DNA from: an uncultured Pelagibacteraceae bacterium
GTDB lineage: Bacteria; Pseudomonadota; Alphaproteobacteria; Pelagibacterales; Pelagibacteraceae
NCBI GenBank assembly: GCA_902545555.1
Contig: CACCGK010000001.1
Coordinates: 124,001 to 188,000 of the forward strand
Direction of reading: 5' to 3'
DNA: 64,000 nucleotides
The position numbers and the translations under genes are program-made. Each line of letters begins with the position of its first letter. Position 1 is the first letter of the stretch. The notes beneath the pieces are model-generated. The model saw nothing but the letters and a program-made list of their open reading frames with translations, searched no databases and was not told the DNA's origin. This document shows positions 22,228 through 58,603 of the stretch, piece by piece.

Positions 22228-24465
22228 TTAATATCCAATTCCAATAATAGTTAAATCATCATCAAGAATATCGTTATTTGCTTTTACCCCTGTCTCTTTG
22301 TAGTCTTTTTTGAGACTTTTAAGTCTTATTTCCTCAGTAGAATTTTCAAGTTCTTTTTGTAAAGAAGAATTTTGATGATTAAGTAAAAGTTTTTTAACTC
22401 CATCAATACCTATTTCATTTTTATTTTCGTCCATACATTCTGAAAAACCATCTGTAAAACAATAAATTCTACCTCCATCTAATTTAAAAGTATCTAGCTT
22501 ATAAACACTTTCATCTTTGTGTTTAACTATTGCAAGAGGAGTAGAAGAGGATGGATACTCAATAAATTCCTTTGCTTTTCTAAACAAAGCAGGTTGATGA
22601 CCTGCGTTTGCTATTTCAACAATATCTGTTTTAATATTATAACATCCCACTATAGATGTAACAAATGTACCAGGGGGATTAGTTTCTTTTAAATCATTAT
22701 TCATTTCAAGTAAGATTTCATTTGGTTTAAATTTCAATCTTGAAAAAATTTTAAATAAAGTAATAGCCTTAGCCATAACCATACCAGCATTTACTCCTTT
22801 GCCAGAAACATCTGATAATGTAAAATAAACAACATCATCATGTAAATAAAAATCATAAAAATCTCCTGAAATTTCTCTGGCTGGAATATTAAGTCCATAA
22901 ATTGGATAATTAGACAAATCTCTATTTGGCATTAAACGTTTTTGAACATTCATTGCTAGTTTAATTTCAGATGAAACTCTGTTTTTCCATTTGTTTTTTT
23001 GTTTTTCGCTTTGTTCCAATTTGTCCATTAAAAAATTGTATTGTGTACCAATAATCCCACTATCAGTGAATGGATCTTGAGGCGCCCTTAATGAATAATC
23101 CTCAGTTTTTGCTTGATTGGTTAATACTTCGAGCAATTCATGAGTATCTGTTGATGCGTTGTGTTCTGATATATTTAAACCAAGCTCTTCCTGGATTTTT
23201 CCCACTCGAAGTGGAAAAATATAATTTATAGATTTAAAAATAATAAAAGCTGCAATAAAACAAAATCCGCCAATGCTAAATGTTCCTATAATCTGAATTG
23301 TTAATTGCTCTAATCTTGTTTTATCTAATCCCATCATTTCAAAATCGCCAAATATAGCGACCGATAAAGTTCCCCATATACCTCCTACTAAGTGAACAGG
23401 TATTGCGCTAACAACATCGTCGATTTTTAATTTTTCTAATAAAATAATTGTTGAGCCTGATAAAATTCCTCCAATTGCTCCAATGTATATTGCTTCAGAT
23501 GGATTAACATAAGCACAACTTGCTGTAATAGAAACTAAACCAGCCAAAGGTCCTGTGATCATAAATAATGGCTCTGGTTTTTTCATTACGATAATTCCCA
23601 TTGCACTAGAAAAAATTAAACCAAATGATGCTGATAAAAAGGTATTAATTAATATTAATGGAATTTTTAAATCCATTGCCCCATTGGCACCTCCATTAAA
23701 TCCAAACCATCCAAACCATAAAATTAAAGCACCAAGAGCAGCAATTGGTGTATTACTTCCTTGAAACAATTTTTTATCTTTATCTTTTCTAAATCTGCCT
23801 GTTCTGCTTCCAATAATAAGTAATATCGCTAATGCTACCCAGCCTCCAACTGAATGAACAACGGAAGCTCCCGCAAAATCCAAATAACCCATCTTACCTA
23901 GCCATCCAAATTTAACTGTTGGATCAGTAAAATCAAAAGCCCAAGCCCAATGACCTACTATCGGGTATAAAATTCCTGAAGTTACAAAAGTAATTATGAC
24001 ATATGAGAAAAACCTAAGTCTTTCAGCAACAGCCCCTGATATGATAGTTGCTGCAGTTGCAACAAACATTGCCTGAAACACAAAATATGTCTGATAACCA
24101 GCAACTTTGGTTGTGAAAAAATAAAACTTATTTCCAAACAAACCCATAACACTAGTTCCATACATCAACGCAAAACCAAAGGCCCAAAAAGTAACTACAG
24201 CTATTCCAAAATCTGTAATATTTTTTAATGCTACGTTAATACTATTTTTATTTCTTGATAAACCAGATTCTAAACACATAAATCCTGCTTGCATCAAGAA
24301 AACTAAAATAGCGCAGACTAATAACCAAAATGTATCTAAATTTGCCTGAAGAACTGCCTCAAGTCTAAACTCTGTTGCTTTGATTGCTCCTTTACTTGTG
24401 AGCTCTAACTGACTTATTTTAGACTGTAGCTTATCAACCAAAATTTGGAGTTCAGCTACAGTCAT
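22228..24465 (-). CDS. Ammonium transporter (Amt) fused to C-terminal SpoIIE/PP2C-type serine phosphatase (copy 1, with N-terminal coiled coil)
   Basis: Amt: LVFLMQAGFMCLESGLSRNKNSINVALKN, DFAGASVVHSVGGW, DDVVSAIPVHLVGGIWGTL (both pore-His regions). SpoIIE: REISGDFYDFY, LSDVSGKGVNAGMVMAKA, YCFTDGFSE, DDDLTIIGI. Confidence 0.95.
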   Translation of the reverse strand: MTVAELQILVDKLQSKISQLELTSKGAIKATEFRLEAVLQANLDTFWLLVCAILVFLMQAGFMCLESGLSRNKNSINVALKNITDFGIAVVTFWAFGFALMYGTSVMGLFGNKFYFFTTKVAGYQTYFVFQAMFVATAATIISGAVAERLRFFSYVIITFVTSGILYPIVGHWAWAFDFTDPTVKFGWLGKMGYLDFAGASVVHSVGGWVALAILLIIGSRTGRFRKDKDKKLFQGSNTPIAALGALILWFGWFGFNGGANGAMDLKIPLILINTFLSASFGLIFSSAMGIIVMKKPEPLFMITGPLAGLVSITASCAYVNPSEAIYIGAIGGILSGSTIILLEKLKIDDVVSAIPVHLVGGIWGTLSVAIFGDFEMMGLDKTRLEQLTIQIIGTFSIGGFCFIAAFIIFKSINYIFPLRVGKIQEELGLNISEHNASTDTHELLEVLTNQAKTEDYSLRAPQDPFTDSGIIGTQYNFLMDKLEQSEKQKNKWKNRVSSEIKLAMNVQKRLMPNRDLSNYPIYGLNIPAREISGDFYDFYLHDDVVYFTLSDVSGKGVNAGMVMAKAITLFKIFSRLKFKPNEILLEMNNDLKETNPPGTFVTSIVGCYNIKTDIVEIANAGHQPALFRKAKEFIEYPSSSTPLAIVKHKDESVYKLDTFKLDGGRIYCFTDGFSECMDENKNEIGIDGVKKLLLNHQNSSLQKELENSTEEIRLKSLKKDYKETGVKANNDILDDDLTIIGIGY

Positions 24466-24475
24466 AAAATTTTTT

Positions 24476-24838
24476 TTAATCTACAAGTTTTCTTGCTTCC
24501 TCAGCGTCAGTAATAATGCCATCAACACTAATTACTTTAACAACCTCGAATCCGGTTCCTAAAATTGCATTCTTGTATTCATCCTCAGATAAATTTGATT
24601 TATCAGCGAAAGAAGATACAGCAACACCTTCTGGCCAAGAAACTTTTACTGTAGCATCAGGACAAGCCTTTTGTAATGCTTCAGTAACCATCTTTTGACA
24701 CTTAATACACATCATACCATTTACTTGTGCGATCTGAGTTTGAGCTGCAAACAAATTAGTACTAAATAAAAGAAAACCTAATATTAACATTATTTTTTTA
24801 AACATAAATTCCTCTTTATTTTTTAAAAAATCTACCAT
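24476..24838 (-). CDS. Secreted heavy-metal-associated (HMA/MerP-like) domain protein; start more likely the internal MFKKIMLILG
   Basis: Signal peptide MFKKIMLILGFLLFSTNLFA then VNGMMCIKCQKMVTEAL (CxxC metal site). Confidence 0.8.
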   Translation of the reverse strand: MVDFLKNKEEFMFKKIMLILGFLLFSTNLFAAQTQIAQVNGMMCIKCQKMVTEALQKACPDATVKVSWPEGVAVSSFADKSNLSEDEYKNAILGTGFEVVKVISVDGIITDAEEARKLVD

Positions 24839-24888: not shown

Positions 24889-27039
24889 TTATTTTCCAAT
24901 TGAAATCAACGTTAAATCGTCACTTAGTTTATTATCACCTGCGGCTTTAACAACATCCTTTGTAATTTCAGAAAGTTGTTTTTTAATATCTTTATTGAAA
25001 TTTTTCTCAATCATTTGAATTGAACCCTCTATTCCTATTTCTTGCCCGCTTTCATTTTCACTTTCGGATAATCCGTCTGTAAAAGCATAAAACCTATGTC
25101 CATTTAATTTTGTTTTATGTGTCTGGTATGCCGATTTATCTTTTTGAGGAACAACACCCATCGGAGGTGAGTTACTCTCAAATTGTTCGTATTCACCATT
25201 TTCATTTCTAATGACTGCTGGTTGATGTCCTCCATTAACCCATCTTATTTCATCTGTGATTGTATTATATTCACCAAGTATGCAAGTTACAAACATTCCA
25301 CCTGTTTTTGTTAAAAACAAGTCATTATTCATATGAAACATCATTTCATCAGGGTCCACTTTATCTCTAGACATGATTTCAAATAAAGTTGACGCCTTAG
25401 CCATAACCATTCCTGCATGAATACCTTTTCCAGCGACATCAGCAATTATAAAATAAACACTATCATTATGAGGATAAAAACTAAAAAAGTCTCCTGACAC
25501 TTCTCTCGCTGCTAAATTAATTCCATGAACAGGATAATTTTCTAAATTTCTTTTTGGTAAAAAGTTTTCTTGAACCTTAACTGCAAGTTTGACTTCATTT
25601 GAAATTCTATCACTCCATATTTTTCTATCAGATTCACTTTTTTCTAACTTGTTCATCAGCTTATTATAATAAAGTCCAATCACGCCACCTGCTGTAAATG
25701 GATCTTGTGGTCCCCTAATTGTTAAATCTCCACTGTCTGATTGTTTTTCTAAAATTTTGATTAAATCATGTTCAACAGATGTTGCATTATGTTCTGCAAT
25801 ATTTAATCCCAACTCTTCATGTAAAGGACTTACTCTTAAAGGATAAAAATAATTTAAAATTTTTAATAAAATATATGCTCCAAAAAAAGAAAAGGCGCCA
25901 ATCGAAACTACTCCTATAAATTGAACTTCAATTTGCTCCAATCTTGTAAGTCCAGTGTCTAATAATTCCAAATCACTAAACAAACCAACTGCTAAAGTTC
26001 CCCATATACCTGCTGCTAGATGAACAGGCACTGCACCAACAACGTCGTCTATTTCATACTTGTTTAATATTTCATTTACAAAAATAGATATAATTGCGCC
26101 AATAATTCCAACGAAGATAGCTGTAACTGATGTCATCGAGTTACATCCAGCTGTAATTGCTACTAACCCAGCAAGCGGACCCAATATAACATAATAGGGA
26201 TCTGGTTTTTTAAAAAAAGCGAATGAAATTCCAAGACCTGTTAACAAACCAAATGCAGCAGCAAGAAATGTATTAATTAAAATCAATGGTACAGTTTCAT
26301 CCATTGCACCATTGCTTCCACCATTAAACCCAAACCATCCAAACCATAAAATTAAAGTCCCTAATACGGCTAAAGGGAAACTAGATCCTGTAAATTTTCC
26401 TTTATTTGCCTCTGAATATTTACCTATCCTAGGACCTAAAATTAATACAGCTGCTAAAGCAATCCATCCTCCTACTGAGTGAACAATGGTACTCCCAGCA
26501 AAATCAACAAAACCCATATCTGTTAACCATCCAGTTTCCTTAAGATTTCCTGTGACGGCTAATAATTGTCTAACAGCATCAACATTATTTAAGTAACTAG
26601 ACGACCATGCCCAATGCCCGACTATTGGATAAATTATACCCGTTGCAAGGATTGTTATGATTAAATATCCATTAAATTTCATTCTCTCTGCTACCGCACC
26701 AGAAACAATCGTTGCAGCAGTAGCTACAAACATTGCTTGGAACACAAAATAAGTCATATATTCAGCATTTTCTGTTTTAAAAAAGAAAAGATCGGTTCCT
26801 ATAATTCCATTCCAACTAGTTCCAAACATAAGTCCGAAACCAAAAATCCAGAAAATTACCACTGCTACACCAAAGTCAGCAGCATTTTTAAGAGCAACGT
26901 TTATACTATTTTTGTGTCTTGATAGACCGGTTTCCATGCACATGAAACCAGCTTGCATAATAAATACTAAAATAGCACAATCTATGACCCAAAGAGTGTC
27001 AACAAATGACTTTACTGATTCCAAATCTACATTGTCCAT
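24889..27039 (-). CDS. Ammonium transporter (Amt) fused to C-terminal SpoIIE/PP2C-type serine phosphatase (copy 2)
   Basis: Amt: FIMQAGFMCMETGLSRHKNSINVALKN, DFAGSTIVHSVGGW, DDVVGAVPVHLAAGIWGTL. SpoIIE: REVSGDFFSFY, IADVAGKGIHAGMVMAKA, YAFTDGLSE, SDDLTLISIG. Confidence 0.95.
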   Translation of the reverse strand: MDNVDLESVKSFVDTLWVIDCAILVFIMQAGFMCMETGLSRHKNSINVALKNAADFGVAVVIFWIFGFGLMFGTSWNGIIGTDLFFFKTENAEYMTYFVFQAMFVATAATIVSGAVAERMKFNGYLIITILATGIIYPIVGHWAWSSSYLNNVDAVRQLLAVTGNLKETGWLTDMGFVDFAGSTIVHSVGGWIALAAVLILGPRIGKYSEANKGKFTGSSFPLAVLGTLILWFGWFGFNGGSNGAMDETVPLILINTFLAAAFGLLTGLGISFAFFKKPDPYYVILGPLAGLVAITAGCNSMTSVTAIFVGIIGAIISIFVNEILNKYEIDDVVGAVPVHLAAGIWGTLAVGLFSDLELLDTGLTRLEQIEVQFIGVVSIGAFSFFGAYILLKILNYFYPLRVSPLHEELGLNIAEHNATSVEHDLIKILEKQSDSGDLTIRGPQDPFTAGGVIGLYYNKLMNKLEKSESDRKIWSDRISNEVKLAVKVQENFLPKRNLENYPVHGINLAAREVSGDFFSFYPHNDSVYFIIADVAGKGIHAGMVMAKASTLFEIMSRDKVDPDEMMFHMNNDLFLTKTGGMFVTCILGEYNTITDEIRWVNGGHQPAVIRNENGEYEQFESNSPPMGVVPQKDKSAYQTHKTKLNGHRFYAFTDGLSESENESGQEIGIEGSIQMIEKNFNKDIKKQLSEITKDVVKAAGDNKLSDDLTLISIGK

Positions 27040-27042
27040 AAT

Positions 27043-27339
27043 TTACTCATCTTTTTTTCTCCAGATAAAGTAAAAAATATAAGGTACTAAAGCTGGAACT
27101 ATTCCAAACCAAAACCACTCATCCCATCTAAAACTTTTGTCTAATGCTAGGCTTTTTAAACCATTCCACCAAGTCAGATATCCTATAAATATTATCCAAC
27201 TCAAACTTATAGTTGCAAATATCTTTGCTTTATTTGAAAGATCTATATTTGATATTTTAGAAATATAATTTTTAATATTGTCTAAATTCATGATGATTAA
27301 ATTAACAGTTTTTGCCTTCAGGAGGTGTAAATCTTCCAT
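27043..27339 (-). CDS. Small membrane protein; start likely internal (MNLDNIKNYIS...)
   Basis: Two hydrophobic segments (IFATISLSWIIFIGYLTWW; FWFGIVPALVPYIFYFIW); ends 3 nt before Amt-SpoIIE copy 2. Confidence 0.55.
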   Translation of the reverse strand: MEDLHLLKAKTVNLIIMNLDNIKNYISKISNIDLSNKAKIFATISLSWIIFIGYLTWWNGLKSLALDKSFRWDEWFWFGIVPALVPYIFYFIWRKKDE

Positions 27340-27746: not shown

Positions 27747-28214
27747 TTACTCTATTGTAATTTCGTTAGAAGTTACGTTACTACTAGTACCGCATGAAGT
27801 TGCAAAACATGTTGATACCGTAACTTTGCCTGTTCCCTGAATTACCCTTGTGTAACCAACATCTGAGTCATTATTTGTTGTTGTTGGGGTATGTGTTACA
27901 GCCGCATTGCTAGTAGAGTAAGGATTTTTAAAATCAGCTAGAGCTTTAGCTGCAGCCTCTGCAACATTCTTTGGTGTTTTTGCACTACAATCAAGTTCAT
28001 CACTCATTGCTTTGCTCTCACCTAAATTACATTTTTGTAATTCAGCAGCTACGTATTTTGCTACAGCAGCTTGGTTTGATTTAGCTGCTTGTTTTTTTGC
28101 ACCTGCTGTGTATCCTGAGTAAGCAACAACACCCACAGCTGCAAGAATTCCTATAATAGCTACAACAACTAGTAGCTCAATTAATGTAAAACCTTTATTT
28201 TTTTTATTTCTCAT
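27747..28214 (-). CDS. Type IV pilin-like prepilin
   Basis: MRNKKNKGFTLIELLVVVAIIGILAAVGVVAYSGYTAGAKKQAAKSNQ; AELQKCNLGE...LDCSAK. Confidence 0.92.
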   Translation of the reverse strand: MRNKKNKGFTLIELLVVVAIIGILAAVGVVAYSGYTAGAKKQAAKSNQAAVAKYVAAELQKCNLGESKAMSDELDCSAKTPKNVAEAAAKALADFKNPYSTSNAAVTHTPTTTNNDSDVGYTRVIQGTGKVTVSTCFATSCGTSSNVTSNEITIE

Positions 28215-28275
28215 ATTTAAAACCTCTTTTATTTTATAATAATTTTAAACTGTATATATTTTAATATTATTTAAT

Positions 28276-28305
28276 AATATAATGCAATTAATCATTTTGG
28301 GTCAA
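28276..28305 (-). promoter_or_regulatory. Candidate sigma70-like promoter for the pilin -> Amt-SpoIIE gene string
   Basis: Minus strand TTGACC-N18-TATATT upstream of the 28214 pilin start; overlaps a CCAAAATGA motif variant. Confidence 0.4.
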
Positions 28306-28359
28306 TCATAGATTGTATTTTTATTGATTTTATTAAAAAATTGTTAAATAAAGGCATTT

Positions 28360-28659
28360 ATGACTTACAAAGTTACAGAAGAGGGAAATATATCTACAGT
28401 TCATCTAGATGGTGAAATAGACATGGATGTAACTGAAAAAGCAAAAGAGGTTATAATGCCTCTTATAGAAGCAAAAAAAGAAGTTCACTTAAATTTAAAG
28501 GAAGTTCAATACATGGACTCCTCAGGAATATCAGTTTTGATTGAAAGTCATCAAAAAGCTATGGAGCTAGGAACCAAAGTTACTTTAAAAGAAATAAGCA
28601 AATCAGTTCTTAAAGTAATAATGATGGCTAAACTAGAACAAATCTTAAATTTGGATTAA
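28360..28659 (+). CDS. STAS-domain anti-sigma-factor-antagonist-like protein
   Basis: 99 aa, VTEEGNISTVHLDGEIDM...VQYMDSSGISVLIE with conserved Ser of the SpoIIAA/RsbV phosphosite. Confidence 0.92.
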   Translation: MTYKVTEEGNISTVHLDGEIDMDVTEKAKEVIMPLIEAKKEVHLNLKEVQYMDSSGISVLIESHQKAMELGTKVTLKEISKSVLKVIMMAKLEQILNLD

Positions 28660-29093
28660 TGGAACAAACAAATATTATTGACTTAGACGAAAAGAGAGAT
28701 TTTGAAGTAAATTCCTCAAATCTTAAACACGTTAGATCTTTCTGCAGAGAGGTTTTTGAAAAGTTAAACATCAATCAAGAACTTAAAGATGAATTAGTTT
28801 TAGCCATTGCAGAAGCTGCGCAAAACATTGTTAAGCACGCTTACAATAATGAACAAACTGAAGATAAAATGGAAATAAAAATATCTGTTAGTGATGGTCA
28901 TCTTGAAATAGGATTTTTTGACAAAGGAAGACCAGTAGAAAAAGATAAAATTAGACACCGAAAAATTGATGATATAAAACCAGGTGGATTAGGAACTTTT
29001 TTTATACAACAAATAATGGATGCAGTTGTTTTTAAAGAGGGTGAAAAACCTTGGATCAACCATCTAATACTTTCTAAAAATTTAAATAATTAA
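28659..29093 (+). CDS. RsbW-like anti-sigma/serine kinase (HATPase_c)
   Basis: N-box ELVLAIAEAAQNIVKHAYN, G1 DKGRPV, G2 PGGLGTFFIQQIMD; ATG overlaps the STAS stop (ttaatgg). Confidence 0.9.
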   Translation: MEQTNIIDLDEKRDFEVNSSNLKHVRSFCREVFEKLNINQELKDELVLAIAEAAQNIVKHAYNNEQTEDKMEIKISVSDGHLEIGFFDKGRPVEKDKIRHRKIDDIKPGGLGTFFIQQIMDAVVFKEGEKPWINHLILSKNLNN

Positions 29094-29466: not shown

Positions 29467-30705
29467 TTAACCACCAATAATTGCACCAACGTTAAAGATT
29501 GGTGAGTACATTGCAATCATTAAACCACCAATCATAATACCCATAAATACAATCATGATAGGTTCAATTAGACTGGACATATTGTCCACAGCTGTGTCAA
29601 ACTCTTCTTCATAGTAATTTGATACTGAAGTAAACATTTCGTCTAAATTTCCTGTTTGCTCTCCTACAGAAATTAACTGACTAAAAGTAGGTGGAAATAT
29701 TGGTTCTTTTAAAAATAGTTTTGTAAGTGTGTCTCCTGAAAAAACTCCTTTTTTAACATTTTCTAAAGCAAGGGTAACCACATCGTTATTACTTACTGCT
29801 TTTGCAATTTCAATACTCTCAAGTAAATTTACACCAGCAGAACTTAAGTTACCCATAATTAATGAAATTCTAGCAATCAATGACTTTAAAATCATGTCAC
29901 CAAACACTGGCATTTTTAAAACTCTTTGATGCCATTTGTATCTAATTGCTGGAATTTTTGTTGTGGTATATTTAAAGATTACAAATAGTATAACAGTGAC
30001 AATTCCTAACGTTAAACCTCCTGAACCTCTCATAAAATTACTTGCTGTCATTATAACAGCCGTAGGTGTAGGAAGAGCAACACCCATACCTTCATACATC
30101 TCTGCAAAAACAGGAACTACTTTGATTAGCATGAAAACCATTACAGTAATGGCAACTGTAAACATAACCACTGGATAAGTTAGTGCACTTTTGATTTTCT
30201 TTTTAACTTTTTCTCTTTTTTCTAATGATTCTACCAATTTCATTAAAAAAACATCAAGTTTACCACTAGCCTCACCCGCTTTAATTAAGTTAATGTAAAT
30301 ACTATCAAAAATTTGTGGATATTTTTCAAAACATTTCGAAAGTGTTATTCCACCTTCTAAACTTTTTCTAATATCTTCAATAATTTCTTTCATTGTTGGA
30401 TGTTCAATTTGATCTCTTAACATACTAAGTACATTAAGAATTGGTAGACCAGCCTTTACCATAGTTGCAAATTGTTTTGAAAAAATTACAACATCTTGAG
30501 GTTTTACTTTTTTCTTTCCAAAAGAAAATCCGCCACTTTTTTTTTTATCTTTAGTAACTTTTTTTTTTGTTTTAACTAAATTTGTGATGATAATTTTTTG
30601 CTCTTTTAATTTAAATGATGCTTCTTCTTGATTTAATGCCTCTATAGATCCTTCAACATATTTACCTGCTGAAATACCTTTGTAAGAAAAAGTTTCTGAA
30701 GACAT
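29467..30705 (-). CDS. pilC: Type IV pilus inner-membrane platform protein (PilC/GspF)
   Basis: FSKQFATMVKAGLPILNVLSMLRDQ...GGITLSKCFEKYPQIFDSIYINLIKAGEASGKLD; repeated GspF domain, SVGEQTGNLDEM. Confidence 0.95.
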   Translation of the reverse strand: MSSETFSYKGISAGKYVEGSIEALNQEEASFKLKEQKIIITNLVKTKKKVTKDKKKSGGFSFGKKKVKPQDVVIFSKQFATMVKAGLPILNVLSMLRDQIEHPTMKEIIEDIRKSLEGGITLSKCFEKYPQIFDSIYINLIKAGEASGKLDVFLMKLVESLEKREKVKKKIKSALTYPVVMFTVAITVMVFMLIKVVPVFAEMYEGMGVALPTPTAVIMTASNFMRGSGGLTLGIVTVILFVIFKYTTTKIPAIRYKWHQRVLKMPVFGDMILKSLIARISLIMGNLSSAGVNLLESIEIAKAVSNNDVVTLALENVKKGVFSGDTLTKLFLKEPIFPPTFSQLISVGEQTGNLDEMFTSVSNYYEEEFDTAVDNMSSLIEPIMIVFMGIMIGGLMIAMYSPIFNVGAIIGG

Positions 30706-30710
30706 TCAAT

Positions 30711-32459
30711 TTAATCCCCTGATAAAACACGATCGTATTCTCTGAAATTTAAATCTCCTGTTAAAATCATTTCACGACCCATATCTTGCATTGTTCTAAA
30801 ACCTTCATTAGTTGCTATTTCTTTAAGTTCAGGTGTAGTAGCCTGTCTTAAGATCGCTTCTTTAATTGGTTTTGTAACATTTAAAATTTCATAGATACCC
30901 ATTCTTCCTTTATATCCAGTATCTTTGCATTTTGGACACCCCTTACCCTTTTGAACTTTTGCTCTTGAAGCTTGTTCAACTGTAAATCCAAGATCAGCTA
31001 AAGCTTTTGGAGTAATATCATCATCAGGAACTCTGCAATCTGGACATGTTTTTCTGGCAAGTCTTTGCGCTAAAACCAATGTGACAGCAGCACTAATTAA
31101 ATAATCAGGTGTTCCCATATTTTGTAATCTTGTGATTGTACTTGGCGCATCATTTGTGTGGAGTGTGCTAAATACCAAGTGGCCTGTTAATGCGGCTTTT
31201 AAACCTATGTCTACTGTTTCTTTATCCCTCATCTCTCCAACAAGAATAATTTCAGGATCTTGTCTTAAAAAGGATCTTAATGCAGTTGAAAAATTAAAAC
31301 CAATGTCATCTTTTATCTGAACCTGACCTACTCCATCTAATTCATACTCAACAGGATCTTCTGCAGTTAAAATATTCAAATTAGGTTTAGAAACTTCTTT
31401 TAGAATACTGTATAACGTAGTTGTTTTTCCAGATCCTGTAGGACCAGTTACTAAAACTAAACCTTGAGTACCATGTATTGCTTTTCTCAAATTTTTTAAA
31501 TCAGTTTCTTCAAAATTTAATTGCTCTAGACTAATATCACCTGCATCTTTGTTTAAAACCCGCATAACAATTCTCTCATTGTTTGCTGTAGGTAAAATTG
31601 ATAGACGCAAATCAACAACTTTACCATCTATTTTAAACGGAATTGCTCCGTCTTGAGGAAGTCTTCTCTCAGCAATATCAAGCTTACCCATTATTTTAAA
31701 ACGAGTAACCACTGCACCATAGTTTGAATGTAAAAACTTAGAAAATTGTTCTTGCTCTTGTAAAATACCATCTAGTCGATATCTAACTCTAGAGTTAAAT
31801 CTATAAGGTTCAATATGAATATCAGAAACTCCAGATTTAATTGCCTCTGCAACAACTGCTGTTGAAAATTTAATTACTTCAGATTCATTTTCTAAAGCCT
31901 CAATATCTTCTTCGGGTTTTTCATCTAAAACTTCTGTGTTATCATCTACGTCATAATCAAACGTTTGAATTTTTTCTTTATTTTTTTGTTGAATAGATTG
32001 CATTGTTGTTTCGCCATCTGCATGAAGTTTTTTAATAAAATCTGAAATCTCACTAATCTTAGCAGCATGTAATTCTATATCCATTTTGGTAATTGTTTTA
32101 AGATTTCTCATTAAACTAAGTTTAGAACTATCAGGAATAGCTATATGTAAAACTTTACCTTCTACTTTAAATGGTGCTATAAAATTCATATTAATATAAT
32201 TTGATGGTAGAACTGATTTAATCTCATCAGTTACAGACAAAGATGTTAAATCTACTACCTCTAATGATTGTTCTTTAACTAATAAATCTAAGATTTTATT
32301 TTCATCAGTAAGGTTAAGTTCAAAGACCGCATCCAATTGGGACTTTTGTCCTTCGGTTGATACTTTTTTGATATTGATTAAATCTTTTCCAGAAATAATA
32401 TCTTGATCAATCAAAATATTAATTAAATTTATTTCAGACTCTCTACTAATATTAATCAT
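30711..32459 (-). CDS. pilB: Type IV pilus extension ATPase (PilB/GspE)
   Basis: GPTGSGKTTTLYSILKE, DPEIILVGEMRDKETVDIGLKAALTGHLVFSTLHTNDAPSTITRL, CPDC...CPKC zinc site. Confidence 0.95.
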   Translation of the reverse strand: MINISRESEINLINILIDQDIISGKDLINIKKVSTEGQKSQLDAVFELNLTDENKILDLLVKEQSLEVVDLTSLSVTDEIKSVLPSNYINMNFIAPFKVEGKVLHIAIPDSSKLSLMRNLKTITKMDIELHAAKISEISDFIKKLHADGETTMQSIQQKNKEKIQTFDYDVDDNTEVLDEKPEEDIEALENESEVIKFSTAVVAEAIKSGVSDIHIEPYRFNSRVRYRLDGILQEQEQFSKFLHSNYGAVVTRFKIMGKLDIAERRLPQDGAIPFKIDGKVVDLRLSILPTANNERIVMRVLNKDAGDISLEQLNFEETDLKNLRKAIHGTQGLVLVTGPTGSGKTTTLYSILKEVSKPNLNILTAEDPVEYELDGVGQVQIKDDIGFNFSTALRSFLRQDPEIILVGEMRDKETVDIGLKAALTGHLVFSTLHTNDAPSTITRLQNMGTPDYLISAAVTLVLAQRLARKTCPDCRVPDDDITPKALADLGFTVEQASRAKVQKGKGCPKCKDTGYKGRMGIYEILNVTKPIKEAILRQATTPELKEIATNEGFRTMQDMGREMILTGDLNFREYDRVLSGD

Positions 32460-34018
32460 TACAAAATTCTTGGTGCAATAAACACCAATAATTCATCTAG
32501 ATTATCAGAATTAGCCTTACCTTTAAAGAGATTACCTATCACAGGCATATTTCCTATACCTGGTGTTTGGTTTTTGCTATTAGATTGTACATTTTTCTTA
32601 ATTCCGCCAATAACCACTATATCACCATCAGCAACTAATAATTTTGTGACTATTTCCATTTTATTTATCGGTGGCTCATCTGATGCAGCAGCTCTGTTAG
32701 GTGTGTCATTGTTTACTTTGATCGTTAATAAAACATTTCCATCACCAATTATGCTTGGAGTGACCTCTAACTTTAATGCTGCCTCTTTAAATGACGTTGA
32801 GGTAGTTCCGTCGGATGTAGTTTGATAAGGAATTTCCTCACCTTGAGTAACTGTCGCCAATTGGTTATCTAGAGTGAAAACTTTTGGATTAGATATAGTT
32901 TTACCCATACCCATGCTTTCAAGTGCTGTAATTTCAGCTTTTAAAACTCCAGTTGTGGTTCTTCTAAGTAATCCAATACCACTAGTTGCTCCAGTTACAG
33001 GAAAATTAGAAAAGCTATCTGTAGCAGAGCCTAAGTTACCCGTATCATTTAGACTTGTTCCTGTTGCACTTCCACTACTAGTGGCTCCTGTTCCTCCAAT
33101 AACATTTCCAGCTTTTTGATAATAACCACCTAATCTTGTGCCTAAAGCTCTTTCAAAATCTGAGTTTGCTTCAACTATAAATGCTTCAATTAAAACTTGC
33201 TTAGTTCTTATATCAATTTCCTTAATTACTTTATCAACTACATCTAAATCTTTTTCTTTTCCTCTTACTATTATAGATCTTGTAGTCACTTCCTCTGTGA
33301 TTTGAATTGGAGTAAATGAACTATCGCCTGATTGTTGTGTGAACAATTCTTCAATTGTTGCTTTAGCTTGTGCTGGAGAAATATAATATAATCTGAATAT
33401 TTCAGAATATATTGGTTCAACACTATCTTCTAATTCTACTTTTTTCTTAACTGCTTGAGCTCTTTCAGATTTATAATTTTCTTGAGAAGTTAAAGTTTCT
33501 GGTGAATGAACTCGTATCAAATTACTTGACACATCAACATCGGATGCATAATTTTTCATATCTAATAAAGCTTGGAATGCCTTATCCCAAGGAACATCAA
33601 TTAACTCAGCTGAAATTACTCCGGCAACTTCATCACCAACTAAAACATTAATTTCCCCAATTTTACCCATTAACTGCATTGTCTCTTTAAAGTCTAAATT
33701 TTTAAATTTTAAAGTTACTCTTTGCTTAAGTAGCGGGAAATTGTCAGAAATAATTAAATAATTTCTTTGAGCTTCTGAAGAAATTTTTTTTCTTTTACCT
33801 AATTTTCTAGTATCCCCTTCAACTGGCTTTGGCCCCATATCTAAAGTTTTAGAAATTTCAGATTTACCTGCTTTAGTAATATCGTTACTTTTAATTAATG
33901 GAGTGTTATGTTTAAAAGGTTTGTTATATTTTTTTGCAAACTGTGAATTGGCACATCCACTTAAAATAAAACCTAAAATCAGAACAACTGATAAATTAAA
34001 TATTTTTTTAATAATCAT
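32459..34018 (-). CDS. pilQ: Type IV pilus secretin (PilQ/MshL-like)
   Basis: Lipobox LSGCA; VLIEAFIVEANSDFERALGTRLGG; IPYQTTSDGTTSTSFKEAALKLEVTPSIIGDGNVLLTIKVNNDTPN; VIGGI...TPGIGNMPVIGNLFKG. Confidence 0.93.
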   Translation of the reverse strand: MIIKKIFNLSVVLILGFILSGCANSQFAKKYNKPFKHNTPLIKSNDITKAGKSEISKTLDMGPKPVEGDTRKLGKRKKISSEAQRNYLIISDNFPLLKQRVTLKFKNLDFKETMQLMGKIGEINVLVGDEVAGVISAELIDVPWDKAFQALLDMKNYASDVDVSSNLIRVHSPETLTSQENYKSERAQAVKKKVELEDSVEPIYSEIFRLYYISPAQAKATIEELFTQQSGDSSFTPIQITEEVTTRSIIVRGKEKDLDVVDKVIKEIDIRTKQVLIEAFIVEANSDFERALGTRLGGYYQKAGNVIGGTGATSSGSATGTSLNDTGNLGSATDSFSNFPVTGATSGIGLLRRTTTGVLKAEITALESMGMGKTISNPKVFTLDNQLATVTQGEEIPYQTTSDGTTSTSFKEAALKLEVTPSIIGDGNVLLTIKVNNDTPNRAAASDEPPINKMEIVTKLLVADGDIVVIGGIKKNVQSNSKNQTPGIGNMPVIGNLFKGKANSDNLDELLVFIAPRIL

Positions 34019-34454
34019 CAGCCTCTCTAATTTGATTGTTAAAATCTAAAATTAAATATTTACCATCTTCTTTTTTAAAAATGGCTTCTGTAAGTCTTAA
34101 ATCTATAAATTGATTTTTTCCTAAATATTGACCTAATGTTAGAGTGATTGCCTCTCCTGCAGAGCTAACAACTGAAATATAACTATGATCTTTTCCTGAA
34201 ATTAAACCTGCAAGTTTAAAATTATATAAACTCATTTCATCTTCTTGTTCACCTTCTGGCATATTTGTCATTGAATTTGTACCTTCATTTCCAGCAAACG
34301 GATCATTTAGAGGTACTTCATCATCATCAGCTAATTCTTTTGTGATTTCTTTTACTTGCTCTATGAGTTCTTCTTTTTGATCGTGATTATCTGCCAAAGA
34401 TATTTTGGCAAACGTCATTATAACTATAACCAATAAAATTTTAAAAAAATTCAT
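34008..34454 (-). CDS. PilP-like pilus assembly protein
   Basis: Secreted, MSLYNFKLAGLISGKDHSYISVVSSAGEAITLTLGQYLGKN; between PilO-like and secretin. Confidence 0.65.
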   Translation of the reverse strand: MNFFKILLVIVIMTFAKISLADNHDQKEELIEQVKEITKELADDDEVPLNDPFAGNEGTNSMTNMPEGEQEDEMSLYNFKLAGLISGKDHSYISVVSSAGEAITLTLGQYLGKNQFIDLRLTEAIFKKEDGKYLILDFNNQIREADDY

Positions 34455-35103
34455 TTGGTAATCCTACTATTGTTAATACTCCTGTAGCGACTATCGCTCC
34501 AGTTGAATCGTTTTGTACTACACTTATAGTCTCTTTGTCAAAGTTAAGCATTTTCTTTTGCTTGGATACTGCTCTTTTGAACTTTATATAGCCAAGAAAT
34601 TTACCTTTTATCTCAAAATCAACAGGTATTTTATAATATGACACCATATCTTGAGTTAAGTTATTTTCTGATTGATTGGCTATTCCCTCTTTCATAACTG
34701 CAATTGGTTCTTTCTTTTCAATTTTTGAAATTACCAATCCATTTACACCTGCATGTCTACTTAAACTTTGATAAAGATCTTCTACCTCAGCTTTAGAATG
34801 AAATAATGTAGAGCTTTCTTCAAATTCGGGTTTTAATTTTTTTATCCTAGCTTTAAATTGAATTATTTCATTTTCAAATTGAGAAATTTCGTTTTCTTTT
34901 AATAGTTTATCTTCATATTTTGCTTTTCTCTCTTTAACCATTGGGTTTAAGATTGCATAATAAATTATTAAGAAGATTATTATTGCACCAAATCCTATAC
35001 CAAATTTTATTAGTGTTTTTTTATCTGCGGCTCCAGAAAACTTGGCTTTCAAATCTGACATTGTTATATTTTTAAGATCCATTAAGCGCTCCCCAATATG
35101 CAA
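34441..35103 (-). CDS. PilO-like pilus assembly protein
   Basis: Single TM, coiled coil, YQSLSRHAGVNGLVISKI...YYKIPVDFEIKGKFLGYIKFKRAVSKQKKMLNFDKETI. Confidence 0.8.
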   Translation of the reverse strand: MHIGERLMDLKNITMSDLKAKFSGAADKKTLIKFGIGFGAIIIFLIIYYAILNPMVKERKAKYEDKLLKENEISQFENEIIQFKARIKKLKPEFEESSTLFHSKAEVEDLYQSLSRHAGVNGLVISKIEKKEPIAVMKEGIANQSENNLTQDMVSYYKIPVDFEIKGKFLGYIKFKRAVSKQKKMLNFDKETISVVQNDSTGAIVATGVLTIVGLPNEFF

Positions 35104-36791
35104 GCTATTTTAAAGCCTTTCATTTTTTGTGATCCCTGCTGTTCACCCTCAGGCAGTGTCATGCTTGCTAAAGATGCTTGAGATATCAGTTTTTTATTGT
35201 TCAAATTACTTATTAATTTAAGAATGTCTTGATCGCTAAATGCTGATCCTTCAATTACTATCTGATCAACCCCATTATATTCAATCGATTTAAACTTGAC
35301 TCTTTTAGGTACGGCAGAAGCAATTTGTGCAAGCACTCTAAAACTTACTGTTTTGTTTGACTCGATTGATTGACTTAATTTTAATGATTTATTCATTACT
35401 CCAATCTCTTTAGCATACTTATTTTTTTCTAAAGTTTTAAGCTCGTGTGTTTGAACAACCTGATCATAACCAACAATTTTTTTATTTAGTTCTGTAATTT
35501 GCCAAAATGAAAATCCAAATAAAGTTATATAAATAATAGCAACTACACCAACTACCCCTTTGAAAGCAAAACTTGAAACAGCTTTTGCTTTTTTTTGCGC
35601 AATCATGTTGTCCCTATTTGGAAGTAAGTTTATGTTTTTTACTGCTGTTACAAATTTATAATAACCAAATACATCTAATTTTCTAAAAGCTAAACCCATG
35701 ACAGTTGAAAAATACGATCGATTTTTCATATTGATTTCATTTTCAAGTTGAGCAGGAACTTTGATTCCATCAAAAGGATCAAAAAGTTGATAACCTGTGT
35801 TAGTCATATTTTTTCTAAAACTTCCTAAATATTCTTCAACATTAGGTAAGTTTGAAGTTACTCTTAAATTTCTAATTCTTTTTTCGTATTTTGTTTCAAA
35901 ATCCTGGATGGCTTGCTTAACTTGCGTCATGTATCTTCTAACTAACGCATCCATTTCTTCTTGATTATTACTTTCTTCTAAAGTTTTTCTATCTTGGCTT
36001 CTAATAAATATATCAGTTATGATTGGATTGTTTTCATATAAAATCATTACATAATTTTCATCTAAACCAAATTCTAAAACAGCTGTTAAATTACTTTCTT
36101 CAATTGAACCTGCTATTTGATTTATTTGGTCTACTGCAGATTTTAACGCAAAACATTTAACATCGATGATAACAGCGTTAAGTCCACCCTTCTTTATTAT
36201 ATCTGTATAATTATTGATGTCTGAAAGCTTGGAGGCAACGAATAAAATATCCATCGTATTTCCAGTGGTGTCTTTATTTATCACTTGATGAAAAATTGAA
36301 TAATCAGCTAAATTATCAGTTAGTTGAACTAAGTTTTCCCATAAAGAATCTGTATCAATTGCTTTTTTTAATTCCTCATCTGTCATTAGAGGAGCTGTAA
36401 CAACTCTTATAATCGCACTGGTAACTGGTATTGCTATTGCAGCATTTGTTGTGTTTATTTTTAATTTTTGTAATGCAATTTTTAATTCATCAGCAACTTT
36501 ATCAGGGTTTTCTAATACTGTTCCCCCTGATGGAATTCCCTCAAACTTATGCACATGAAATTTATCTAAAACCCACTGATTAGACTTGTTGTTTGAAACT
36601 TGAGATAGTCTTATTTCGTTAGGTGTAAGTTCAACACCAATTATCTCTTCTCCTTTTGCGGTTGATTTTCCTAATCTGTTTTTTAGAAACTTACTAAAGA
36701 AACTCTCTTTTTTATTCCCTGCCTCTGGTTTTGGAACAGGTGCATCACTTTTTGCTTTTTTTTTAAAAAGATTTGCAAATGGATTTTTCAT
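35082..36791 (-). CDS. Fused PilM-PilN protein
   Basis: N-terminal PilM-like ATPase fold (IIGVELTPNEIRLSQVS) followed by PilN-like VKNINLLPNRDN + TM + RVLAQIASAVPKRVKFKSIEYNG. Confidence 0.85.
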   Translation of the reverse strand: MKNPFANLFKKKAKSDAPVPKPEAGNKKESFFSKFLKNRLGKSTAKGEEIIGVELTPNEIRLSQVSNNKSNQWVLDKFHVHKFEGIPSGGTVLENPDKVADELKIALQKLKINTTNAAIAIPVTSAIIRVVTAPLMTDEELKKAIDTDSLWENLVQLTDNLADYSIFHQVINKDTTGNTMDILFVASKLSDINNYTDIIKKGGLNAVIIDVKCFALKSAVDQINQIAGSIEESNLTAVLEFGLDENYVMILYENNPIITDIFIRSQDRKTLEESNNQEEMDALVRRYMTQVKQAIQDFETKYEKRIRNLRVTSNLPNVEEYLGSFRKNMTNTGYQLFDPFDGIKVPAQLENEINMKNRSYFSTVMGLAFRKLDVFGYYKFVTAVKNINLLPNRDNMIAQKKAKAVSSFAFKGVVGVVAIIYITLFGFSFWQITELNKKIVGYDQVVQTHELKTLEKNKYAKEIGVMNKSLKLSQSIESNKTVSFRVLAQIASAVPKRVKFKSIEYNGVDQIVIEGSAFSDQDILKLISNLNNKKLISQASLASMTLPEGEQQGSQKMKGFKIACILGSA

Positions 36792-36912: not shown

Positions 36913-37929
36913 ATGTTTGAAAAATTAGAAGATCTAGCAAAGAATAATAAAAAAATATCAGACTTTCACATTAGGGCTGGATCGCCTCTAGCTTACAGAG
37001 CAACAGGTGAAATTATAAAAGTTCAAGAAGTTATTGTTACAGCTCAAGATTTAAAAGATCTTTTATCAATGAACTGTAATGAAGAGGAGTTAGAAAAATT
37101 TGAAAGAACTCATGAACTTGATACAGCAGTAAGTTTAAGTGGATTAAGGTTTAGAGCAAACTTTTATAAAACAATCAATGGTCCTGCATGCGTTTGTAGA
37201 AGAGTAGAAAGTAAAATTCCTGATATGGATCAATTTAATTTACCACAAGCTCTTTATGATATTGTAGACTTTCATAAAGGTTTAGTTTTAGTGACAGGTC
37301 CTACAGGTTCAGGGAAGTCAACTACGCTAGCTGCGATTGTAAATGAAATTAATAAAACTAGAACTTCAAATATTATAACTGTTGAAGATCCAGTTGAATT
37401 TATTCACACTGACAATCAAAGTATTGTTTCTCATCGAGAAGTTGGAAAACAAACTCAATCATTTGCAGCAGCATTAAAAGCAGCTTTAAGAGAAGATCCT
37501 GATGTAATTCTTGTTGGAGAGATGAGAGATTTAGAAACAATTAGTTTAGCACTTACTGCTGCTGAAACAGGTCACTTAGTTTTTGGTACATTGCATACAA
37601 GTGGTGCACCAAGTACGATTAATAGAATTATTGATGTGTTCCCTCCTGAACAACAAGAACAAATTCGTGCACAAATTTCAACTTCATTAAAAATGGTAGT
37701 TACGCAAAGATTATTAAAAACAAAAGATGGTCAAGGACGAGTGGGAGCATTTGAAATAATGAAATGTACTCCACCAATTCAAAACTTAATCCGTGAAGCT
37801 AAAATTCACCAAATTCCCAGTATCATGCAAACTGCAGTAAGAGATGGTATGATTACAATGGATAAATCTTTAGAGGAATTGGTTAAGTCAGGAAAAATAG
37901 ATCCAGGTGCAGCAAAAGCAGGACATTAA
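36913..37929 (+). CDS. pilT: Type IV pilus retraction ATPase
   Basis: SDFHIRAGSPLAYRATGEI, GPTGSGKSTTLAAIVNEIN, AALREDPDVILVGEMRDLETISLALTAAETGHLVFGTLHTSGA. Confidence 0.93.
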   Translation: MFEKLEDLAKNNKKISDFHIRAGSPLAYRATGEIIKVQEVIVTAQDLKDLLSMNCNEEELEKFERTHELDTAVSLSGLRFRANFYKTINGPACVCRRVESKIPDMDQFNLPQALYDIVDFHKGLVLVTGPTGSGKSTTLAAIVNEINKTRTSNIITVEDPVEFIHTDNQSIVSHREVGKQTQSFAAALKAALREDPDVILVGEMRDLETISLALTAAETGHLVFGTLHTSGAPSTINRIIDVFPPEQQEQIRAQISTSLKMVVTQRLLKTKDGQGRVGAFEIMKCTPPIQNLIREAKIHQIPSIMQTAVRDGMITMDKSLEELVKSGKIDPGAAKAGH

Positions 37930-38560
37930 GGGTTTTACAATTTTAGAACTACTAGTTGTTATTACTATAGTAGCTATCGTCTCTGCTGTTGGTTATCCAA
38001 ATTTTATGGAGTGGAGTGAAGATAGAAAAGTTAGAAAAGCCTCTGAACAAATTGCGTCAATGCTTACAAATATTAACACTCAACTTCAAAGAGGTAATTT
38101 TCAGTATGTTCAGTTTCAAATAATTCCCGGAGGTACCTCATCAACAACAATCAGAACTAAAGGAATTTATCAAGATAGTTATTCAGAAAAAATTAATTCA
38201 GGAGGTATAAAATGTAGTAACAATAATAATTATTGGGACGAAACTGTGCAGGAAATAGTGATTGATACTCCAGTCCATACAGACAAGCAAGGTTCAGTAT
38301 GTTTTTCAAAAGATGGAACTAAGTTCTTACAAAATGGATCATTAGAAAATCAATATGGATTTTTTGTTAATGGTGAGGAGGTAAAAGATTATGCGCTTGT
38401 TTGTAGCGAAAGTAACGCAAAACAAATTGGTGGAAAATGTGATCTGAAAACTCTTGGTAAAAATGGTGGTTTGACAAAACCTGCTTATTTGGTTCTATGG
38501 TCAAGATTTGGTACAGTTACTAAATATAAAAGAGGTAAAAGTGATTGGACAATTAGATAA
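37907..38560 (+). CDS. Minor pseudopilin (GspH/FimT-like)
   Basis: KGFTILELLVVITIVAIVSAVGYPNFMEWSEDRKVRKASEQIASML. Confidence 0.85.
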   Translation: MQQKQDIKGFTILELLVVITIVAIVSAVGYPNFMEWSEDRKVRKASEQIASMLTNINTQLQRGNFQYVQFQIIPGGTSSTTIRTKGIYQDSYSEKINSGGIKCSNNNNYWDETVQEIVIDTPVHTDKQGSVCFSKDGTKFLQNGSLENQYGFFVNGEEVKDYALVCSESNAKQIGGKCDLKTLGKNGGLTKPAYLVLWSRFGTVTKYKRGKSDWTIR

Positions 38561-39131
38561 AAGAATTTACGAAAAAGGGATAACATTACTAGAAGCACTA
38601 GTTTCCACAGCTATTATTGGTATTGGCTTTGTTGCAATATTTCAAATGGTTAATTATTCCGTTCAATCTATCGATACTTCAGGTGAGAGAACAAAATCTA
38701 ATTATTTAGTAGGGATGGTAGCAGAAGACTTAATTGCTGAAAAAAACTCAACTTCCCCTACAAAAGATGTTAAATTAATGGATTATTTAGTTTCAAATAA
38801 AATATCAGGTACTAAATCATCTTGGAGAATGGGTAGCTGCTCAACTGGAACCTCAACAACAGGTTCATTTACTAATACTGCTCAAAATAAATTTAAAAAA
38901 TGGGATGACAGATTTTCTAAAAGAAGAATTAAATGTAAAGGATCACAAGATATAAAATTTTTAAAGGTTTTCGATATCTGTAACAACGGTGCATCTGGAA
39001 ATAATTGTACTTATAATAACACGCAGCGTTATCAAAACACTGGAATTTATGAAAAATGGTATTTAGGAAAAATGGAAGTAAACATGAATGATGGTAGCAA
39101 GAAAAAATATCTTTATTTTCAAATTCATTAA
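38508..39131 (+). CDS. Minor pilin (PilV-like)
   Basis: EKGITLLEALVSTAIIGIGFVAIFQMVNYSVQ; between FimT-like and PilW-like genes. Confidence 0.8.
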   Translation: MVQLLNIKEVKVIGQLDKRIYEKGITLLEALVSTAIIGIGFVAIFQMVNYSVQSIDTSGERTKSNYLVGMVAEDLIAEKNSTSPTKDVKLMDYLVSNKISGTKSSWRMGSCSTGTSTTGSFTNTAQNKFKKWDDRFSKRRIKCKGSQDIKFLKVFDICNNGASGNNCTYNNTQRYQNTGIYEKWYLGKMEVNMNDGSKKKYLYFQIH

Positions 39132-39971
39132 ATGAAAAAAAAATTAAGTACAATTGCTGGTGTAACTTTAATTGAAATTTTAATTGGTATTTTAATTTCT
39201 GTGGTGATGATGGCAGCAATGTTTACATCATATACAGTTGTTAATAACTCTTACTCTCAAGTTGCTGATCGAGCAAAAATTTCTACAGCTGGGAGAGATG
39301 TTATAGGAATGTTATTAAGAGATATACGACTTGCTGGATTTAAATATCATAATGATAATATTCCCACATCAAACGAACATGCTCCTATCGTTATTACCAA
39401 ATCAAGTAACTTTGCTCAGTCATGTGATAAAATAGAAATAGTTTTTGGAACTATAGCAGGTAAACCAACTGGCAATCCTTTAAAGTACGAATATGAAAGA
39501 TATAAAATTACTTATGAGTGTAAAAAATCAAAAATTCCAAATAAGTCTGCTCCACCCTTGCCAGGAAATAAGTATCCTCCAATTGATGCATTTGCAATTT
39601 ATAAATCAAAAGAAAAATGGAACACTTCAAGAAATAATTGGGACAATGGTAGCACTGATAGTAATCCTAAAACTTACGGACCATCATTAGTTGCAGATTA
39701 TATCAGTGATTTAGTTTTTAATGCAATTGATGACAAAGGTTTGTTAATCAAACCGCCTCCTACACCAACGAATGCAACAAAAGATAAATTATATAAAATT
39801 AAAACTATTGATATTGCTTTAACTGTAAGATCGACAAAAGATTTTTTTAGAACTTCAAAATTAAGAGAAATTCTTGCAATGACGGACACATCAAGAAATA
39901 TAAAAAAAACTGATAAATTTTTAAGAGATACAATTGTTGTAACTGCTCACGCTAGGAATATTGGTCTATGA
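39132..39971 (+). CDS. Minor pilin (PilW-like)
   Basis: AGVTLIEILIGILISVVMMAAMFTSYTVVNNSYSQVADRAKISTAGRDVIGMLLRDIRLAGF. Confidence 0.87.
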   Translation: MKKKLSTIAGVTLIEILIGILISVVMMAAMFTSYTVVNNSYSQVADRAKISTAGRDVIGMLLRDIRLAGFKYHNDNIPTSNEHAPIVITKSSNFAQSCDKIEIVFGTIAGKPTGNPLKYEYERYKITYECKKSKIPNKSAPPLPGNKYPPIDAFAIYKSKEKWNTSRNNWDNGSTDSNPKTYGPSLVADYISDLVFNAIDDKGLLIKPPPTPTNATKDKLYKIKTIDIALTVRSTKDFFRTSKLREILAMTDTSRNIKKTDKFLRDTIVVTAHARNIGL

Positions 39972-40693
39972 TTAAAAAAAATGAAAAAGGTTTTGCGTTA
40001 GTCCTCTCTTTAGTTTTAATGCTAGCAATGTCTTTAATGGGTGGAGCGCTTATTGTTATGTCTGCAAGTGACCATCAAAGCAATAATAAGAGTGATGAGT
40101 ATCAACAAACTTTTTATGTAGCAGAAACTGCTTTGTTAGAAGGTGAAAAATATGTGGTCAATCAATTTTTAGGTCCTTGGAATCCTTCCAATCATAAAAG
40201 AAATGTTGGAAGTAGAAATTTACCTACTAATCAGAAATCTACTTTTAATGGTCAAATGACAAAAGTTAATTACAGTTCATCTGATAAATATTATTTTAAT
40301 ACTTCAAATTATTGTTTTAATAGTTTTCCAGATAAACCAGACAATCTTAAAGTTGTTGTTGGTGAAAGTTGGAATTTTGGTGATGTCATTCGAGATAGTT
40401 TTAATAACAATGCTTCTCAAGCAGAGAAGGATGAGGCTGAAAGATTAAAGGGTTATTATTATGAATACTTTATTACCAATATAGGAGCTGCTCCATTTAA
40501 AGGATCAGGATCTAGTGTTAAAAAACAAGCAGGAAATAGCGGTCTAAATGGTATGGCTTATAGGATATTTGGCTGTGGAATAAAGGCTGAAGAGCATGGA
40601 TTTAACAAAAATAACCAAAAACACTCTATTAATTCTGGGTCTAAAAAAAGAATAATTGTAGCCCTAGAAAGTGTAGTTGTTTTACCAAAATAG
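39968..40693 (+). CDS. Minor pilin / pilus assembly protein (PilX-like)
   Basis: EKGFALVLSLVLMLAMSLMGGALIVMSASDHQSNNKSDEYQQTFYVAETALLEGE. Confidence 0.85.
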   Translation: MIKKNEKGFALVLSLVLMLAMSLMGGALIVMSASDHQSNNKSDEYQQTFYVAETALLEGEKYVVNQFLGPWNPSNHKRNVGSRNLPTNQKSTFNGQMTKVNYSSSDKYYFNTSNYCFNSFPDKPDNLKVVVGESWNFGDVIRDSFNNNASQAEKDEAERLKGYYYEYFITNIGAAPFKGSGSSVKKQAGNSGLNGMAYRIFGCGIKAEEHGFNKNNQKHSINSGSKKRIIVALESVVVLPK

Positions 40694-40749
40694 ACCAATT
40701 TGAACGGTTTTAAAGTCTAATTAAATTTTGTTATATTATAAATTAAAGA

Positions 40750-41289
40750 ATGAAAATTTTAATAAAATCTTTTTTAATTATAATTTTATCAATTAATCTT
40801 GCCTATTCAGCTTGCGATCTAATAGCAGAATTTGGGGAAAAAAAAGAAGTTTTTGAGAAAAGAGAAATTGCTACAAGACCATTTCCAATGGAATATGCTG
40901 AATTAGATGTTTATCCTATTTTAGCAAATGATGTTTGCCCTAACCAAAAATTAAACGATGTAGGCATTGAATATAGATTTTTAAATGACGAATTGGTTGC
41001 AGTTAATTTTGTTGCTTTAAATGATGATCGAAATTTAGTAACTGAAAAATTGACATTAATGAATTATGTAAAAAAAAATTATCAAAAGTTTGATACTGGA
41101 AACAATCCAAACTCTTATGAAGGAGTGGAGGTAATTGAAAAATCAAATTTATTTATTGTATATCAAAGATTAACTGGTGATGACGGGATTAAAAATGAGC
41201 AGATCTATATTTCAACACCTAAGCTAGATGAAAAATTGTCAAAATTCTATGCTAAAAAAGAAATTGAAGATTTGAAGAATTCACAATGA
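40750..41289 (+). CDS. Secreted hypothetical protein in the minor-pilin/PilY1 string
   Basis: Signal peptide MKILIKSFLIIILSINLAYSAC; stop overlaps PilY1 start. Confidence 0.75.
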   Translation: MKILIKSFLIIILSINLAYSACDLIAEFGEKKEVFEKREIATRPFPMEYAELDVYPILANDVCPNQKLNDVGIEYRFLNDELVAVNFVALNDDRNLVTEKLTLMNYVKKNYQKFDTGNNPNSYEGVEVIEKSNLFIVYQRLTGDDGIKNEQIYISTPKLDEKLSKFYAKKEIEDLKNSQ

Positions 41290-58541: not shown

Positions 58542-58559
58542 ACAAATAAAAATATTTGT
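58542..58559. promoter_or_regulatory. Perfect 7-bp inverted repeat ACAAATA-AAAA-TATTTGT upstream of the double-HTH gene
   Basis: Read directly from sequence; TTGACA at 58539-58544 overlaps its left arm. Confidence 0.4.
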
Positions 58560-58580
58560 TCAGATTGGGTTTTTTTAAAT

Positions 58581-58590: not shown

Positions 58591-58603
58591 TTGTTTAAAA
58601 AGC

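Follow-up and report, generated by a model that had tools for sequence, protein, structure and literature searches.

We have found that a 64,000-nucleotide stretch of an uncultured Pelagibacteraceae genome of the SAR11 group, referred to below as the window, encodes a STAS protein, an RsbW-type kinase and three SpoIIE-type phosphatases, which together make a well-supported partner-switching module, and that this module is linked to a type IV pilus locus in the window and across the genus. Judging from this linkage, the output of the module is likely directed to the pilus. On balance we favour the view that the type IV pilus of SAR11 has a partner switch of its own, with sensor-bearing SpoIIE proteins as its inputs and a pilus output at the protein level.

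The core of the module is a pair of genes on the plus strand, namely an RsbV/SpoIIAA-like STAS antagonist of 99 aa (28360..28659) and an RsbW/SpoIIAB-type serine kinase of 144 aa (28659..29093), whose frames overlap by one base at the STAS stop and the kinase start (..TTAATGG) and are intact in relatives. The STAS protein matches PF01740 (58.5 bits, E 6.5e-16) and exceeds the curated cutoff of the NCBIfam anti-sigma antagonist profile TIGR00377 (71.4 bits), and B. subtilis RsbV and SpoIIAA, with which it aligns, are its nearest solved structures. It is a STAS-only protein with a Ser in the DSSG/DSTG loop; the DSSG is kept across all orthologues listed, and Ser55 of the motif YMDSSGIS aligns with SpoIIAA Ser58. 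Ser55, or else Ser54, is therefore a candidate phosphoserine. The kinase matches PF13581 (HATPase_c_2) above cutoff, with 72.8 bits and an E value of 3.3e-20, and a comparison with the PDB places it nearest to B. subtilis RsbW (6m36) and SpoIIAB (1til/1l0o). In 10 diverse relatives the residues of its N box (E52, N56), G1 box (D88, G90) and G2 box (GGLG, G109-G112) are invariant, and the same holds for R26, which aligns with SpoIIAB Arg20, a residue with a role in partner binding. For the RsbW equivalog profiles of NCBIfam, PRK04069/TIGR01924, the kinase stays below the cutoffs (55.6 vs 145 and 46.0 vs 155.05 bits). The initial annotation had proposed the overlapping STAS/RsbW-like pair, its phosphorylatable Ser and the three kinase boxes, and these proposals have all held up.

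As had also been described there, the pair is placed between the pilin/Amt-SpoIIE genes and pilC/pilB. On one side, two type IV pilin-like genes on the minus strand (27302-27724 and 27747-28214; PF07963, ComP_DUS, TIGR02532) diverge from it, and a conserved small protein with hydrophobic segments and no Pfam match (27043..27339, minus strand) separates the pilins from Amt-SpoIIE. On the other side lies the pilus core of pilC, pilB, pilQ, pilP, pilO and pilMN (29467..36791, minus strand), assigned by profile matches and synteny, and the same locus continues with pilT, minor pilins and pilY1-like genes (36913..45446, plus strand). A scan for sigma-70-like promoters around the pair returned sites no commoner than in shuffles. 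In the divergent intergenic region between the pilin and STAS genes (28215-28359), the block GGGTCAATCATAGATTG is kept in close relatives and is possibly a regulatory site.

Some further features have been observed. More pilin-like genes are scattered over the window, at 5409-5861, 45475-46460 and 49150-49632, apart from the main pilin pair, and the stretch 49659-53345 within the pilus region encodes a trio of transglutaminase-like, DUF58-like and MoxR-like proteins, named by sequence appearance. The PilMN proteins of many relatives (L053:1642-4065, L056, L055:15855-18098) have an additional N-terminal stretch of ~200-280 aa with the conserved segment HIYxRQDKYKGELKSKN..RLY.DGKQKISSSGTPNLEEAIPILEKWFDD, and this stretch is missing from the PilMN of the window.

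Three SpoIIE phosphatases, two Amt fusions and one GAF fusion, had been noted initially in the window, and all of them are verified by Pfam. Amt-SpoIIE fusion 1 (716 aa, 24889..27039, minus strand) scores 377 bits for PF00909 and 131 bits for PF07228, fusion 2 (745 aa, 22228..24465, minus strand) scores 359 and 96 bits, respectively, and the GAF-SpoIIE phosphatase (430 aa, 56904..58196, plus strand), which adjoins a prepilin peptidase, scores 141 bits for PF07228 and 44 bits for GAF_2. The SpoIIE domains align with SpoIIE-type phosphatase domains in the PDB, and all three sequences contain the SGDF, DVxGKG, TDG and DD motifs that a PPM phosphatase should have if it is active; in fusion 1 these metal-site motifs are SGDFF, DVAGKG, TDG and DD. 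The Amt part and linker of fusion 1 align with PDB 8qj3/8qpf up to residue 483, and the protein also aligns with Ks-Amt5 (6eu6), with the pore Asp and twin His retained. By these alignments it has the structural traits of a sensor Amt, i.e., a C-terminal signalling domain together with a conserved pore and linker. Between the two fusions lies a small heavy-metal-associated-like protein without Pfam match (24476..24838, minus strand), which is often kept beside Amt-SpoIIE in many relatives and corresponds in position to SAR11_0051, a 'metal ion transporter'.

Amt-SpoIIE fusions were also sought outside SAR11. Among 387 Alphaproteobacterial genomes, a sample that contained few SAR11 genomes, the two fusions of the window alone were matched through the SpoIIE part (E 1e-60) and none was found beyond SAR11. 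Six of the other long Alphaproteobacterial Amt fusions were checked, and all six carry HisKA-HATPase_c histidine-kinase domains.

The module also stands alone in its genome. The assembly of the window (1.05 Mb, 77% complete) is closely related to genomes of Pelagibacteraceae obtained from single cells and metagenomes. In total it gives a single match to STAS, a single one to HATPase_c_2 and three to SpoIIE, all of them inside the window in a span of ~36 kb. Since these are the only members of their families in the genome, such a grouping exceeds chance. No sigma factor is encoded in the 64 kb of the window, in agreement with the initial annotation; the genome has two, and both are found on contigs other than this one. 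Thirteen relatives, all but one of them assembled in 1-5 contigs, have exactly two sigma frames each, of 610-631 aa and 299-310 aa, i.e., of RpoD and RpoH size. This rules out a dedicated distant sigma factor, one of the outputs considered at first: the cognate alternative sigma factor of a canonical anti-sigma-B or anti-sigma-F system is lacking in the window genome and in all 13 relatives, and any sigma output must be the housekeeping or the heat-shock one. With no dedicated sigma factor at hand, the output is most likely at the protein level.

We have further surveyed 201 genomes of the genus, many of which are incomplete, so that the counts of presence and absence reflect incompleteness: the kinase is found in 69, PilC in 78 and SpoIIE in 87. 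All of the 69 kinase genomes have PilC (Fisher 2e-44) and all have SpoIIE (Fisher 2e-37), with p-values that ignore kinship and common assembly gaps, and with counts affected by the fact that clustered genes drop out together in incomplete assemblies. Loss of conservation between the pair and the phosphatase genes, which had been named as an argument against the circuit, is thus not what we see. The kinase lies no more than 2.5 kb from PilC on the same contig in 61 of 69 cases, and it is present in 14 of the 29 good-quality genomes. In 80 named loci, classified by BLAST against the proteins of the window, by which diverged small proteins may escape, PilC is beside the kinase without exception (80/80); where the flank is sufficient, STAS adjoins the kinase in 73/73 and a pilin is present in 69/69, and a SpoIIE protein lies within ~10 kb in 42 of the 46 loci with full flanks. 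In another genus (G004, L072), where the locus is rearranged, relatives of the kinase (39% identity), STAS protein (37%) and Amt-SpoIIE (50%) still have pilus genes as neighbours.

Nine genomes have PilC and no kinase match. Three belong to the main pilus lineage: in one (G249) a kinase fragment of 60 aa lies where a contig ends, and in the others (G426, G428) PilC is incomplete or close to the start of a contig. The other six (G330, G331, G344, G358, G384, G386) form a divergent pilus lineage with PilB ~56% identical, where pilC directly adjoins the pilins and neither a kinase nor a SpoIIE match was found, which indicates that the switch is not essential for having a pilus.

In terms of divergence, the STAS protein (17.5%) is comparable to PilB/PilC (16.5 and 18.3%), while the kinase has diverged about twice as fast (34.4%). 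The slow divergence of STAS would fit conserved partners besides the kinase. The mirror-tree correlation is 0.71 between STAS and PilB/PilC, 0.45-0.52 between the kinase and PilB/PilC, and 0.46 between STAS and the kinase; since the common species tree contributes to these values, they point to no particular target.

The sensors, on the other hand, vary while the linkage of kinase, STAS and pilus stays constant, which bears out the early notion of multiple inputs to one core. CHASE2-SpoIIE proteins are found in L053, L058, L075 and L076, of which L058 has an Amt fusion and the other three have none in the stretch seen. In these loci (L053:12389-17231, L075, L076, L058), CHASE2-SpoIIE occurs with FecR-like and outer-membrane-like proteins as a sensor cassette replacing or accompanying Amt-SpoIIE. 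In several relatives GAF-SpoIIE directly precedes pilMN. In G026, a 288-aa SpoIIE protein is flanked by a pilin gene on each side, and its coordinates fit SAR11_1218, which adjoins a globin and pilins according to PMC2217521. As separate observations, some SAR11 genomes have a second, divergent type IV pilus locus (L060, L061, L063, L064, L066; PilC ~45% identical) in which an RsbW-like kinase adjoins pilT and no STAS lies beside it, and in the second pilus locus of G078 STAS and CHASE2-SpoIIE lie 26-40 kb from the kinase.

The cultured strain Ca. Pelagibacter ubique HTCC1062 has an orthologous gene order from SAR11_0049 to SAR11_0057. Actually, the order of genes in the G026 locus (L054) equals the published order of SAR11_0047-0054, which puts the kinase at SAR11_0057, a gene named rsbW and the sole Ser/Thr kinase listed for HTCC1062 (PMC13198564). 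Unlike the window, with its single STAS, HTCC1062 has a second tandem STAS, the two genes being SAR11_0055/0056; in the HTCC1062-like clade (L040-L044, L049, L051-L054) this second protein is of 94 aa. The genes SAR11_0049/0050 are annotated as ammonium transporters (PMC2217521), and according to PMC13198564 none of the phosphatases annotated in HTCC1062 is predicted to have proteins as its substrates. Both Amt fusions of L054 match those of the window over essentially their full length, SpoIIE part included, and SAR11_0049/0050 are on this ground candidate protein phosphatases. It is plausible that they supply the protein phosphatases reported missing in the strain. In the accessible text of PMC13198564 and PMC2217521, the SpoIIE domains and the circuit go unmentioned.

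Taken as a mechanism, the module would work as follows. The kinase would transfer phosphate to Ser55 or Ser54 of the STAS protein, and the sensor-bearing SpoIIE phosphatases (two of Amt type and one of GAF type in the window; CHASE2 types and one with a globin neighbour in relatives) would dephosphorylate it. Considering the Amt domains, ammonium is the putative signal, whose occupancy of or flux through these domains may set the fraction of unphosphorylated STAS; the response might be of either sign. A pilus component, our best output candidate, would then be acted on by the freed kinase or, in the manner of HmpV and SypA, by unphosphorylated STAS, and pilus assembly or retraction might be controlled thereby. 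The most specific version, in which Amt-SpoIIE switches the pilus at the protein level, STAS binds the pilus machinery without any sigma factor, and the fusions are the missing phosphatases, is one that we put forward tentatively, with somewhat less than even confidence.

The main rival to a protein-level pilus output is an output through a housekeeping sigma factor, which we regard as unlikely. In a classical anti-sigma circuit of this kind, the kinase would sequester RpoD or RpoH until unphosphorylated STAS frees the sigma factor, and several transcriptional outputs would result, the pilus genes among them. The kinase is indeed nearest to RsbW and SpoIIAB, its invariant R26 stands opposite SpoIIAB Arg20, and RpoD and RpoH are the only sigmas that it could meet. 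RsbW-type anti-sigmas bind sigma and are not known to phosphorylate it, a point against the circuit. There is a reported precedent in RsbW/sigma-66 of Chlamydia (PMC8256260), and since both RpoD and RpoH of HTCC1062 bear phosphosites (PMC13198564), a housekeeping sigma is a conceivable target. Yet two sigmas are present in 13/13 relatives checked while the kinase is present in about half of the good-quality genomes, and it invariably accompanies the pilus. Two proteins encoded just downstream of GAF-SpoIIE, the double-HTH protein (58556-59566) and the 89-aa protein (58243-58512), had been suggested in the initial annotation, but a transcriptional output via either of them is highly improbable. 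An HTH relative lies near the G026 locus too, but such relatives occur in 145/201 genomes, show no tendency to accompany the kinase (OR 1.02, p = 1) and are lacking in 19 kinase genomes, and this genus profile rules out the double-HTH protein as a dedicated output. The 89-aa protein has lost a little ground: two relatives (L074, L085) show no such protein next to GAF-SpoIIE, which is weak evidence since small proteins can be missed.

RsbW-type kinases are normally specific for STAS proteins, which counts against a general Ser/Thr kinase whose position beside the pilus is incidental. PMC13198564 suggests such a kinase behind much of the SAR11 phosphoproteome, and a single listed Ser/Thr kinase does face 1014 phosphosites on 555 proteins in HTCC1062. 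As roughly half of the good-quality genomes of the genus are without it, the kinase is an accessory trait, which argues against a universal SAR11 kinase; considering also its strict linkage with STAS and the pilus, we find this explanation very unlikely. Finally, the Amt fusions might mainly transport ammonium, with STAS and kinase feeding back on uptake in a module of nitrogen economy and the pili as bystanders. The retained pore residues and the position of the fusions beside the pair would agree with this, but the linkage to the pilus persists where Amt is replaced or accompanied by phosphatases of the CHASE2, GAF or globin-linked type, and we hold such a module to be improbable.

SAR11 bacteria, which rank with the most abundant heterotrophs of the ocean, possess very few regulators. 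If our proposal is true, transporter-like sensors let them read ammonium and pass the signal to a surface pilus by way of a circuit, a phosphatase output is present in genes so far annotated as ammonium transporters, and candidates are at hand for the protein phosphatases reported absent in PMC13198564. Direct tests are feasible in HTCC1062.

Sensor Amts are already known, and so is partner switching, including the kind linked to pili. What appears to be new is the fusion of Amt with a Ser/Thr phosphatase tied to a pilus, of which we have found no description in the openly accessible literature, subscription papers being mostly outside this scope, and no case in the 387 Alphaproteobacterial genomes outside the window. 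The RsbU/RsbV/RsbW (sigma-B) and SpoIIE/SpoIIAA/SpoIIAB (sigma-F) systems of Bacillus share the same three families and the predicted chemistry, whereas SAR11 is without a cognate sigma-B or sigma-F and its kinase falls well short of the score required for the RsbW equivalog. In Ks-Amt5, an Amt-histidine kinase (PMC5764959), and in 8qj3/8qpf, the Amt with its C-terminal linker is repurposed for signalling as in the fusions of the window, whose output domain, unlike the histidine kinase of Ks-Amt5, is a Ser/Thr phosphatase. In SypE/SypA of Vibrio fischeri, STAS is reported to act on its target in biofilm control; SypE is a single dual-function protein, and neither a pilus locus nor Amt is mentioned for Syp in the accessible text of PMC8256260. 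The closest known system is Hmp (HmpU/HmpV/HmpW) of Nostoc punctiforme, which likewise combines a SpoIIE phosphatase, STAS and an RsbW-type kinase and acts on type IV pilus motility, with the STAS protein HmpV reported as its output (PMC8256260; PMC6495340). Hmp is cyanobacterial, the accessible parts of these papers mention no Amt-fused phosphatase, and Nostoc has several alternative sigma factors where SAR11 has two; in SAR11 a functional tie to the pilus is suggested by the strong genomic linkage.
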